DNA from: Methanothrix soehngenii GP6
GTDB taxonomy: Archaea > Halobacteriota > Methanosarcinia > Methanotrichales > Methanotrichaceae
NCBI RefSeq assembly: GCF_000204415.1
Contig: NC_015416.1
Coordinates: 2,666,001-2,730,000 of the forward strand
Length of the DNA stretch: 64,000 bases
Direction of reading: 5' to 3'
The translations under genes and the position numbers were made by a program. Below the pieces are notes generated by a model. That model was not told where the DNA came from, ran no database searches, and worked only from the letters and a program-made list of their open reading frames with translations. Positions within the stretch are counted from its first letter, which is position 1. Each line of letters begins with the position of its first letter. Shown here piece after piece: positions 14,717 to 58,405 of the stretch.

Positions 14717-14767
14717 GGCTTAAATAGATGCCCGGCACGATTGCCCGTAAACGAGCGAGGAATTATC

Positions 14768-14927
14768 GGCTCCTTCCGAATTATGTGGTTTAGTTCCGGC
14801 AGAGAATATGGCCTTTTGTTCCTCTGTGTCTCTGTGGTTGGGTCAGAGCATACCGGTTCACTACAGAAGGCACGGTGACATAGAGTTTTTGCGATTTAAG
14901 TTCACCCACATATAATAGCGAGGAGCC
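14768..14927 (-). repeat. MITE-like repeat, copy A, with 8-bp target duplication
   Basis: This 160-bp non-coding element starts GGCTCC and ends GGAGCC. It is flanked by an exact 8-bp direct repeat GAATTATC at 14760-14767 and 14928-14935. Its body matches repeats at 47988-48135 and 58246-58405 over most of their length (shared core GTATGCTCTGACCCAACCAC in minus-strand orientation). The ends form imperfect inverted repeats of about 25 bp. It encodes no protein, so it would need a transposase in trans. Confidence 0.85.
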
Positions 14928-14983
14928 GAATTATCTTTAAAAGAGTGAAATCAGGTCCGGAATCGAGACCTGGATTCCGGAAA

Positions 14984-20529: not shown

Positions 20530-21585
20530 CTACTCCCACCCCTTAAAAGGGGCAGGCTTCTACGGTTTTTATTCCGACAGATTGTAGTCCCAATCTGAGT
20601 ATATTGATTGCCGCATTCCAATCTCGATCCAAGGATAGCCCGCACTGAGTGCAGTTATGGACGCGATCAGAAAGCGTCTTTTCAACCAGAATGCCACACC
20701 TGGAGCACATCTTAGACGTATTTCTTGGATCTACCAGTACTACCATCGAACCGGCACTTGCAGCCTTGTACGAGGTCAGAGTCACAAGCATATTCCAAGC
20801 CACGTCTGAGATGGATTTTGCCAGGCAATGGTTTTTGAGCATATTTTGAATACTAAGATCTTCAAAGGCAATCAAACCGAACCTGTTAACCAGATACCGA
20901 CTAACCTTATGGGCAAAATCGCATCGCTTGTTAGCGATCCTCTCATGGACCCGCTCAACCATCCGAAGAGCTTTCTTTCTGGAGTGCCTTTCGGTACTTT
21001 TGAGAGCTTCCTTTGGACTCTGGCGAGTTCCGTTTCCTCTTCTCGGAAGAATCGAGGATTAGCTATCGTCTCACCATTGGAAAGAGTCGCAAAGCTTTCC
21101 AGACCAACATCTACACCAACGAGAGAACCGTCTTTCTGAGGATAGGTAAAAGAATCGTACCAACCTCTTCCCCGAAATCTTGGATATCCAGGATTCTCTC
21201 CGGCTTTGACTCTTCGGAAGAACGCCTTCAAAGCAAGATCCACCCTTTCCTGGGCATTCTGAAGGGTTTGGGAAAAGACATCGTTAAGTTCAGGCTTCTC
21301 TTCTTTCCAAGTTGGAAGAAGATTGTGCGTCTCGTACTTGGATACGGATTTGCCTTCTTTCTCCCAAGCATCTTTTCGGTATGCTAAGGTCTGATTGTAT
21401 GTCCACCGGCATAGATCTAGGGTCCTCTCCATCTTCGTCCTTTGGGACTTTGTTGGATAGATCCTAAATTTATATGCCTTGAGCATAGATGCTTTTTATG
21501 CGGTTGATTGTGTTTATAGTTTTCTGCACAACGGTGGGGCACGATTCATCCCCTCCCCTGAAGGAGAGGGGTCTTCTCTGCCCCT
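20530..21585 (-). mobile_element. IS200/IS605-type TnpB-only element, copy 1 (decayed)
   Basis: The right end (minus-strand sense) is the hairpin CCCCTTTTAAGGGG followed by TGGGAGTAGTCAC next to the thiL stop. The left end near 21585 has a C-rich/G-rich hairpin followed by ATGAATCGTGCCCC, matching the left end of copy 2 at 48352-48400 (GATGAATCGTACCCC). No tnpA is present, so it depended on a transposase elsewhere. It encodes one broken tnpB. Confidence 0.75.
20543..21486 (-). pseudogene. tnpB: TnpB (RNA-guided nuclease), frameshifted and internally deleted
   Basis: Two overlapping frames (N-terminal 20872-21486, C-terminal 20543-20962) together give a TnpB. The N-terminal part keeps MLKAYKFRIYPTKSQRTKME and the first RuvC motif GVDVGLESFATLSNGET. 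The C-terminal part keeps FEDLSIQNM (Glu), a CSRCG/CTQCG zinc ribbon and LDRDWNAAINIL (Asp). Against copy 2 it lacks about 61 residues between TYPQ and KDGSL, in frame, and has a net single-base loss after PERK that breaks the frame. It cannot make an intact nuclease. Confidence 0.88.
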
Positions 21586-47949: not shown

Positions 47950-47987
47950 GATTCTGATAATGCAATTGGAGGAGAGAAATAGCTTTT

Positions 47988-48135
47988 GGCTCCTCGCTAT
48001 TTTGTATGGGTGAACTTGAATCGGAACAACTCTATGTCTCCGTGCCTTCTGTGGTGAACCGCTATGCTCTGACCCAATCACAGGGGAACAGAGGCTATAT
48101 TTCCTGCCTCACCCACATAATTCAGCGAAGGGCCT
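47988..48135 (+). repeat. MITE-like repeat, copy B
   Basis: About 148 bp, beginning GGCTCCTCGCTATTTTG and ending CAGCGAAGGGCC, matching copies A and C over nearly the full length (shared GAACCGCTATGCTCTGACCC region). The N-terminal extension of the minus-strand frame comes from this repeat. It is followed 39 bases later by a diverged copy. Confidence 0.8.
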
Positions 48136-48174
48136 ACCTTTTCCCTGCAGAGAGCACTTCATAAATGATTTTTG

Positions 48175-48329
48175 GCTCCTCGCTATTTGGTGTGGGTTCG
48201 TGCGCTAGTCAGGAATTCGACATTTTTTCATGATCCTCTGTGCGCTCTGTGACTCTGCGGTTTTTATTCCGTATTCCGTAAACCACCAGGGTTAATTATC
48301 CCGCTACTCACTCGATACAGCGAAGAGCC
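48175..48329 (+). repeat. MITE-like repeat, diverged copy B2
   Basis: It has the same left end GGCTCCTCGCTATTTGG and right end CAGCGAAGAGCC, but the middle has diverged. With copy B it forms a tandem just before the left end of TnpB element 2. No target duplication is visible. Confidence 0.65.
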
Positions 48330-48490
48330 TGATTTTTTCTACAGTGCTGGGGCGCAGGGGTAGAGAGGGCTCCGGTCTTCAGGCCGGAGATGAATCGTAC
48401 CCCGCCCTACGCTATGAACCTTAATATACTAATAACGGCTTAGAACTGTACATGCTTAAGGCTTACAAGTTCAGGCTTTATCCCACAAAG

Positions 48491-49964: not shown

Positions 49965-50851
49965 TCCGCAGCATCTTGTTTTTTTAAGTTTTTCATGTGA
50001 AGTCTCAGATAACCAAGATGGAGCGAACGCTGGACTTGTGCCGATGGACATACAACCAGACTCTAGCATACAGAAAGAACGCCTGGGAGAATGAAGGCAA
50101 ATCAGTTTCCAAATATGAAACGAACGCTCTTCTTCCTGGTTGGAAAGAGGATAAACCCGAACTGAGAGACGTATATGCTCAGACCCTTCAGAATGTTCAG
50201 GAGCGGGTAGATCTAGCCTTTAAAGCCTTTTTCAGAAGGTTTAAGGCGGGAGAAGAACCCGGATATCCCAGATTCCGAGGGAAGGGTTGGTACGATTCAT
50301 TTACTTATCCACAACCTGAGAAGGGCGGCAATCTTGTTAACGGCATGGTACGTCTTCCCAAGATAGGCGATATCAAGATCAAGCTCCATCGCCAGATAGA
50401 AGGCAAGATCAAACGGCTGACCGTCAGAAGGACAGCCACAGGCAAATGGTTTGCATGCTTCTCCGTCGAAACTGAAGATGTTCCTCTCCCCCCCTGGAAA
50501 GATGGGGCTGTAGTAGGTATTGATGTCGGCCTTGAGAGCTTCGCCACCTTTTCCAATGGTGAGACGATAGCTAATCCTCGATTCTTCCGAGAAGAAGAAC
50601 ACGAGTTAGCTAGAGCCCAAAGGAAACTCTCTAAGGCTCCTAAAGGAACTCCAGATCGCAAGAAAGCTCTTAAGGTTGTTGAGCGAGTCCATGAGCGGAT
50701 AGCTAACAAGCGATATGAGTTTGCCCATCAGGTTAGTCATAACTTGGTAGATAGATTTGGTCTAATAGCTTTTGAAGATCTTAACATCAAAGGCATGGTT
50801 CATAATCATTGCCTGGCTAAAAGCATCTCAGACGTAGCTTGGACCATGCTA

Positions 50852-52170
50852 GTACAGCCGGGCTGAGATGAACCTGACGATAAGGTTTTATATATAATCA
50901 TTGACAGATACTCTACAACAGGGGAGTATCAATGCCGGGTCCGAAACCACCAGCAATCAACTTGAACGACGTCGAGCGCCAAGGGTTGGAATTGCTTGTT
51001 CGTCGGTATACTACAGGGCAGCAAAAAGTTATCCGAGCACGGATTGTTTTGCTGGCTGCGATGGGTAAGAACAATCGTGAAATCGCTAATGAATTAGAGG
51101 TTTCCTTGGACACTGCTCGATTATGGCGACGACGATGGCTGGACTTGCAGCCGATTTCTTTGGATGATCTGAGTATTGAAGAACGCTTGGATGACCTGCC
51201 AAGACCAGGAGTACCACCTCGTTTAACTGCAAACCAGATTTGTCAGATCCAACAGCTGGCTTGTGAGAAACCTGAAGAATCGGGACGTCCAATTAGCCAA
51301 TGGACAAGCCGTGAGATTGCAGCAGAAGTAATAAAGCGGGGCATTGTAGATACGATTTCAGCTCGTCATTCTGCCAGGATTCTAAAAAAAATGACCTCCA
51401 ACCGCACTTGATTCGTTACTGGCTAACACCTGCTCCGGACGATCAATTCGACGAAAAGGTAGACGATATCAATTCACTGTATCAACAAGCCATTAATTTG
51501 GCTCAAAAAGGTGAAGTCGTAATGAGCATCGATGAAATGACTGGGGTACAAGCTCTCGAACGCAAACACCCTGGATTGCCAATGGCACCAGGAAAAGTGG
51601 AACGCAGGGAGTTTGAATACATCAGGCATGGAACTCAATCATTCATCGTGAGCTTTGCGGTAGCCAACGGAAAGGTTGACACCATTTCTTGCGGCGATAC
51701 GCGCAATGAAGATGACTTCGTATCCCATATCAAGGAAGTGGTAGAAAGATCCTTATCCACATCCCGCTGGCACTTTGTCGCCGACAATCTCAATATCCAT
51801 AAATCAGAGTCTCTTGTGAGGTATGTGGCAGATGTATCCGACTTGGACATCGACTTAGGAATCAAAGGCAGAGATGGTATTCTGAAGTCAATCGAAACTC
51901 GCGAATCATTCTTGGCCGATCCATCTCACTCAATTGTCTTTCACTACACGCCGATACACGCTTCTTGGATGAACCAGGTCGAAATATGGTTTAGCATTTT
52001 GGTCAGGAAGCTGCTCAGGCGGGCCAGCTTTGCTTCTATCAATGATCTGAACGCCAAGGTTCTGGCGTTTGTCGAGTACTTCAACAAGACAATGGCAAAG
52101 CCATTCAAATGGACATATCGAGGGAAGGCACTTACTATCTAAAATTGGGCTTATTTAAGCCCGGCTGTAC
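50852..52170 (+). mobile_element. IS630/Tc1-mariner family insertion sequence
   Basis: 1319 bp inside tnpB copy 2. Inverted ends are GTACAGCCGGGCT (50852-50864) and AGCCCGGCTGTAC (52158-52170). The TA dinucleotide is duplicated at both sides (50850-50851 and 52171-52172), which is the IS630 target preference. Removing the element and one TA restores the TnpB frame (MLV-TLT). It has one transposase read by a frameshift. Confidence 0.95.
50932..52142 (+). CDS. IS630-family transposase, made by -1 frameshift on A8
   Basis: Frame 1 (50932-51411, 159 codons) gives the helix-turn-helix N-terminus ([20 protein letters not shown]). Frame 2 (51408-52142) gives the DDE domain: [60 protein letters not shown]. 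They overlap at CTAAAAAAAATGACC. A -1 slip on A-AAA-AAA gives [18 protein letters not shown], which matches the usual IS630 junction, so this is very likely programmed frameshifting rather than a mutation. All three catalytic acids are present. Confidence 0.9.
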
Positions 52171-52427
52171 TAGTGACTTTAACCTCTTACAAGGCTGCAA
52201 GTGCCGGTTCGGTGGTGGTCCTGGTAGATCCAAGGAATACGTCTAAGATGTGTTCCAGGTGTGGTACTCTCATTGAAAAGTCGCTGTCCGATAGAGTCCA
52301 TAACTGCACTCTGTGCGGGCTGTCGATGGACCGGGATTGGAACGCAGCGATAAATATTCTCAGATTGGGATTGCAATCTGTCGGCACAGGAAGCCGTGGA
52401 AGCCCTGCTCTTTAGGGCGGGGAGCAG

Positions 52428-57188: not shown

Positions 57189-58271
57189 ATGAAAGGGCCA
57201 GGGAATGTTTCGATCTCAAGGATAGCATCAGCGGTTATTCTCTTCTTATTCCTCCTGGCGGCTGTCTCTTTTTCATATTCCGTTTCTGCAGAGGACGAAG
57301 AGAACGGGCGTCCCGATCTGGATATCTCCTCGGTCTATGGCAGGCTGGATACAAATGGCCCTTCGACATTGTACGTCCTGCTGCATAACAATGCTACTGC
57401 ACAAGCCACCGAGAGACAAGAATCCCAAGAGTTGGATCTTGATCCGGCAAAAGCCAGGGGAATTACAGCAGAGCTTGTTAGCGATGACGAGCGGGTGAGG
57501 GTTTTGTCCGGGCCCCAGATGGCCGGCTCCCTTGGTCCGGGTGAGAACACCACGGTGGAGTTCATGGCCCTGGCAGAGGGGGCAGAGGTGGGCATCTATC
57601 CCGCCAGGCTCAGGCTGAGCTACTCTCGCCTGGAGAGGGTTTCGATCTCCAGCGAGGACATAGCCCCTGACATCATATTTGTCTATGAGGATCTATCCGA
57701 ACAGCTGCCTTTGCCGGTCAAGGTGGTCCTCGGGCCGAAGATAATGATACAGGAGATCGAAGGAGCGGCAAGGCCGGGGGAGGCAACTGAGCTTGAGGTT
57801 GTGGTGGCCAACGAGGGGGACGAGGCCGCCATTGACCTCCGGCTGGAGGCAAGAGCCAATTCGCCATTCCTCCGGGCAGGGGATGAATTGGTAAATGAAT
57901 CGGATGAAAAACAAAACTATAAGGACCTCGAGGCGGGATCTGAGGCATCCTTTGAACTCATGGTTCTCACCGAGGGCAATACCACGTCCGGATACGCTCC
58001 CCTTCCCTGCAGTATCTCTTACCGGATTTCACCACCCGGGGAGGATATGGACCAGATAGGCAAGGGTAGCGAGAGGCGGGAGGATATTGCTCTCCTGGTG
58101 ATGGTAGAAGAGGACTCTCATCTTGAGGCATGGATGCTCTTTTTTGCTGGCATTCTCATTATTCTCATCCTGGCGGCGGCATACATTTATTTCAAGAATT
58201 TCAAGCGAAATGGGTCAGGCAGGAGCGACTTTGGCAAAAAGAAAAGGCTCCTCGCTATTTTGCATGGGTGA
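57189..58271 (+). CDS. Exported membrane-anchored protein with CARDB-like domains
   Basis: The protein has 360 residues. A signal peptide (AVILFLFLLAAVSFSYSVSA) precedes an extracellular part with at least two beta-sandwich repeats (RPGEATELEVVVANEGDEAA is a CARDB-type motif). A C-terminal membrane helix (WMLFFAGILIILILAAAYIY) and a basic tail anchor it outside the cell. The last 9 codons and the stop lie within repeat copy C, so insertion of the repeat probably replaced the original C-terminus. Similar to COG1361 S-layer-type proteins. Confidence 0.75.
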   Translation: MKGPGNVSISRIASAVILFLFLLAAVSFSYSVSAEDEENGRPDLDISSVYGRLDTNGPSTLYVLLHNNATAQATERQESQELDLDPAKARGITAELVSDDERVRVLSGPQMAGSLGPGENTTVEFMALAEGAEVGIYPARLRLSYSRLERVSISSEDIAPDIIFVYEDLSEQLPLPVKVVLGPKIMIQEIEGAARPGEATELEVVVANEGDEAAIDLRLEARANSPFLRAGDELVNESDEKQNYKDLEAGSEASFELMVLTEGNTTSGYAPLPCSISYRISPPGEDMDQIGKGSERREDIALLVMVEEDSHLEAWMLFFAGILIILILAAAYIYFKNFKRNGSGRSDFGKKKRLLAILHG

Positions 58272-58405
58272 AATTGAATCGGAAACTCTCTGTATCTTTT
58301 CGCCTCTGTGGTGAACCGCGATGCTCTGACCCAACCACAGAGGCGCAGAGGAACAAAAGGCCATATTCTCTGCCTTAACTCACCCACATAATTCAGCTAA
58401 GAGCC
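58246..58405 (+). repeat. MITE-like repeat, copy C
   Basis: 160 bp, from GGCTCCTCGCTATTTTGC to CAGCTAAGAGCC. It matches copy A in reverse and copy B in direct orientation, sharing ACAAAAGGCCATATTCTCTG with copy A. It supplies the stop codon of the surface-protein gene upstream and lies 5 bases from the stop of the convergent permease gene. No clear target duplication. Confidence 0.83.

Follow-up and report, generated by a model that had tools for sequence, protein, structure and literature searches.

A genome-wide MITE family in the methanogen Methanothrix soehngenii, very probably mobilised by an ISL3-family insertion sequence

MITEs have been described in Sulfolobus, Halobacterium, Haloquadratum and other archaea (reviewed in PMC10969869, in which ISL3 is not mentioned). 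Like the repeats reported here, they are small, multicopy and non-coding, carry terminal inverted repeats and target duplications, and are moved in trans, but their hosts and their mobilising family are different. Miniature elements of the Tn3 family can form mosaic units that carry cargo, as the composites of 326-470 bp found in this study also seem to do, but those elements are bacterial, unlike the archaeal MITE described here. Target duplications of the Tn3 family are 5 bp long. On the side of the transposase, Tn7546 of the ISL3 family has the inverted repeat GGGTCTTCGGA and 8-bp repeats (PMC9782665). Tn7546 and the ISL3 insertion sequence (IS) that we propose as partner of the MITE are alike in an ISL3 transposase with Zn ribbon and HTH, in short GG-TCTTCG-like inverted repeats and in AT-rich duplications of 8 bp, whereas the MITE has no transposase and only its ends in common with the IS. 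MITEs as a kind are already known; the present family, assigned to ISL3, appears to be a new one, and none of the papers found in a literature search describes it.

Here, we have analysed a window of 64,000 nucleotides (bases 2666001-2730000 of the 3,008,626-bp chromosome of M. soehngenii GP6, whose genome of 3,026,645 bp is in two contigs) and show that four repeats within it (Table 1) are members of a genome-wide non-coding MITE family. We show common ends, target duplications, an autonomous partner, multiplicity, a recent burst and an empty site, and consider it very probable that the repeats are a non-autonomous MITE of ~159 bp, bounded by imperfect terminal inverted repeats of ~24 bp, for which a 1302-bp IS of the ISL3 family supplies the transposase in trans.

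Table 1. MITE copies and their target duplications in the window (window coordinates).
Feature	Position	Strand	Length, sequence or match	Remark
MITE copy A	14768..14927	-	160 bp	intergenic; neighbours are an SPFH-like gene and a zinc-finger ribosomal protein-like gene
Target duplication of A, left	14760..14767	.	GAATTATC, 8 bp	
Target duplication of A, right	14928..14935	.	GAATTATC, 8 bp	
MITE copy B	47988..48134	+	147 bp	
Target duplication of B, left	47980..47987	.	TAGCTTTT, 7/8	
Target duplication of B, right	48135..48142	.	TACCTTTT, 7/8	
MITE copy C	48174..48329	+	156 bp	ends as in the others, body different
Target duplication of C, left	48166..48173	.	TGATTTTT, 8 bp	
Target duplication of C, right	48330..48337	.	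TGATTTTT, 8 bp	
MITE copy D	58246..58405	+	160 bp	without target duplication

A profile of 55 genomic copies has exactly four nhmmer matches in the window, with E-values of 3e-51 for copy D, 3e-41 for B, 1e-38 for A and 2e-13 for C; copy A is on the minus strand relative to the other three. All four copies named in the first-pass annotation are thereby confirmed, with small corrections to its bounds (B ends at 48134 and C starts at 48174). The same annotation had described common ends and a common body. The ends are indeed common to all four, but the body of copy C is largely divergent, with ~48% mean identity to the rest. It had also credited one copy with an 8-bp duplication, which is exact around A; the perfect one around C and the 7/8 match around B had been missed. 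No target duplication was found at the flanks of copy D; the copy at 2794935-2795094, which has 99% identity to D, does have a perfect one (GAATATGT). The terminal arms of copy B are imperfect, being 73% complementary over 26 bp. That the repeats encode no protein, as proposed earlier, agrees with the open frames overlapping A, B and D, which are short or enter from outside. The last codons and the stop of a membrane-protein ORF (57189-58271) are contributed by copy D, inside which this ORF ends. No Rfam family reached its gathering score anywhere in the window.

The family extends beyond the window. In the stretches of the same chromosome that we examined there are at least 55 intact copies, 143-163 bp long and with a consensus of 159 bp, in which both ends are present. 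The count is conservative because the altered left end of copy A lies outside that search; blast with copy A against the genome gave 40 scored matches out of 110 candidates. With up to 2 mismatches allowed, the 16-base end pattern GGCTCYTCGCTRWWTT has 190 sites in the genome and its reversed control 22, and the repeats are therefore not a product of chance. On both sides the elements end in GGCTCYTCGCT, and the imperfect terminal inverted repeats of ~24 bp have the consensus GGCTCCTCGCTATTTGGTATGGGT at one end and GGCTCTTCGCTGAATTATGTGGGT at the other. Perfect 8-bp duplications flank 24 of the 55 copies, and 32 copies match at 7/8 or better, whereas shuffled flank pairs gave 0.42 on average and never more than 4 over 2000 shuffles. 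Identity between the flanks is 70% at 8 bp as against 33-39% at 4-7 and 9-12 bp, and the A+T content of the duplicated bases is 79% (201/256) versus 54% in nearby flanks.

Searching the genome with the ISL3 transposase family returned three full frames, one for each copy of a 1302-bp element that has GGCTCCTCGCT at its start and the reverse complement of this sequence at its end. Each copy has a perfect 8-bp duplication (GTTTATTG, AAATTCCA and TAATTTAG), and the three are near-identical; a base-by-base comparison of two of them showed a single mismatch. The open frame of 417 aa contains the Zn ribbon, HTH and DDE domains of ISL3 and scores 1e-75 for the ISL3 transposase in Pfam (PF01610 over its full length, 1-240) and 339 bits for NF033550 in NCBIfam (cut-off 180). 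The first 11 bases of the left end of the MITE are those of both IS ends, and 20 of 24 are identical; among sites of the window that are not copies, the best has 17. Taken over the ends, MITE and IS agree at 18-20 of 24 positions, i.e. 4-6 positions differ; the likeness fades ~24-34 bp in from the ends, with little in common beyond. Since the likeness fades so near the ends, we rejected an origin of the MITE by simple internal deletion from the IS.

As judged from these sequences, the mobilising partner of the MITE is almost certainly the 1302-bp IS. The ISL3 transposase, rather than another transposase, would recognise the ends common to both elements and insert the MITE into AT-rich DNA by an 8-bp staggered cut, giving rise to the 8-bp duplication; beyond the ends, the body is no internal deletion of this IS, and its hairpin motif would come from elsewhere. 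The earlier idea of a non-autonomous element moved with 8-bp staggered cuts is borne out by duplications at 8 bp only, by the burst and by the empty site. Movement by a transposase, also proposed then, is supported, but the enzyme is no longer unseen: the suggested search for a complete element that combines these ends with a transposase led to the ISL3 IS and its three copies.

An empty site, which the first-pass annotation had proposed to look for in related strains, was found for one copy outside the window (L028, 438804-438962). Its joined flanks match across the junction at 85-89% identity in six related uninterrupted loci, two in the same genome and four in other species. The target CCTATTAT or a similar sequence is present once at the empty loci and twice around the L028 MITE, and the interrupted gene is tnpB-like, as read from the protein by eye. 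The empty-site argument is carried by this one site because, among the matches listed, the remaining queries with joined flanks matched relatives over one half only. The window has two tnpB-like genes of its own, named by eye, at 20543-21486, which looks frame-broken, and at 49997-52415, which by eye is split by an apparent IS630-type insertion (frames 50932-51411 and 51408-52142).

Among 26 genomes of the genus, MITE matches were found in 10 and some transposase match in 22, many of the latter being fragments, with the relatives often broken. One genome (G022) has MITE matches and no transposase match. These points speak against the proposed pairing, though the genomes concerned are incomplete drafts. 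In a second species of the genus (G003), ten aligned copies are 0-1 base apart and nearly all complete copies of this near-identical group have perfect duplications; by their sequences, these copies represent a recent burst of the MITE. The same genome has an ISL3 element of its own, whose ends are of the same type and which is flanked by a perfect duplication (GAAAAGGA). Near-identical copies with intact duplications make movement directly testable in this species. With the MITE and its ISL3 partner, an acetate-using methanogen gains a defined and apparently recently active pair of MITE and transposase, of use in strain typing and in annotating intergenic repeats. A second miniature element of ~200 bp was also seen in G003 (L165, 571-770; L166, 416-616), with similar ends and perfect 8-bp duplications.

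Outside the genus, MITE copies with perfect duplications are present in a genome of the same family (G306), and another genome (G228) has a 168-bp element with similar ends, perfect duplications and a different body. Because the elements of both genomes keep the ends and the body differs in G228, it is apparently the ends that are mobile, and different bodies can lie between them. In a genome of another class of the phylum (G061), there are full-length copies (L317 and L321) that are 81-84% identical, one with a perfect duplication, which could be a transfer between classes or a binning error.

Two other explanations of the repeats have to be weighed. Duplications of 8 bp are produced by several transposase families, so that the mover could belong to another family with such duplications and GGC-type ends, e.g. 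IS1595 or IS6. We consider this very improbable, as the three ISL3 copies are the only transposase-size elements found with these ends and duplications, and other species have ISL3 elements (L167 and L171) whose ends are similar and whose duplications are likewise 8 bp long. Alternatively, the repeats could be old intergenic functional repeats, such as terminators, REP-like sequences or regulatory hairpins, that merely resemble a transposon. The body of copy D can form a hairpin and folds clearly better than shuffles (z -3.65; four window copies compared), and the hairpin motif of the body is found in many phyla, but no clear advantage over shuffles was seen in the folding of copies A, B and C. 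Moreover, duplications occur at 8 bp and no other length, near-identical copies lie at unrelated sites in G003, and the insertion in the tnpB-like gene has intact empty sites. Functional repeats are refuted as an account of the spread and have hardly any likelihood as an explanation of the family, although some copies may have a secondary function. The preferred explanation is that of a MITE moved by the ISL3 transposase.

The body of the MITE holds AACCACAGAGACACAGAG or close variants together with an inverted partner (e.g. 58333-58352 of the window; loci L184-L263), and such pairs could fold into hairpins in numerous bacterial phyla and in some archaea. Exact matches to this 18-mer number at least 117 across the genome collection, with hosts in Planctomycetota, Acidobacteriota, cyanobacteria, proteobacteria, Verrucomicrobia and others, and 70 of 99 occurrences are followed within 300 bp by an inverted partner, allowing up to 4 mismatches. 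The motif points to a widespread repeat class, and a literature search by its letters found no description of such a hairpin repeat. Within the phylum, 14 of 393 genomes have the motif, one of which (G034, of another class) has it 41 times. A looser form occurs 154 times in the M. soehngenii genome versus 2 for the control; 39 of the best 52 sites are inside catalogued MITE copies and several more in decayed ones. Near 737-742 kb (L307, 736800-743000) there is a cluster of repeats of this motif class, 'GATTATTAACCACAGAGGCACAGAGTTCACAGAGACGC', that have no ISL3 ends, and composites of 326-470 bp with outer duplications carry more hairpin-type sequences, some between MITE parts. Our results suggest that these hairpins may have been captured several times by ISL3 ends. 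It is conceivable, and we propose it only tentatively, that Methanothrix ISL3 ends repeatedly took up and spread a hairpin repeat, AACCACAGAGACACAGAG ... CTCTGTGTCTCTGTGGTT, belonging to an undescribed class across many bacterial phyla and some archaea that is mobile in its own right or serves a conserved function. We rejected a conserved hairpin, in RNA or in DNA, as the feature under selection, because copy D is the only one of the four in the window whose folding clearly exceeds that of shuffles.

Elements larger than the MITE, at 233-470 bp, were also observed, and their outer duplications match at 7-8/8 (L047, 1501-1970; L103, 711-1068; L037, 1149-1516; L089, 705-1030; L087, 678-910). In L047, L103 and L037 a second repeat, AACCACAAAGAGCACAAAGATCACAAAGG ... 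CTTTGTGGTTTA, adjoins whole or partial MITE copies.
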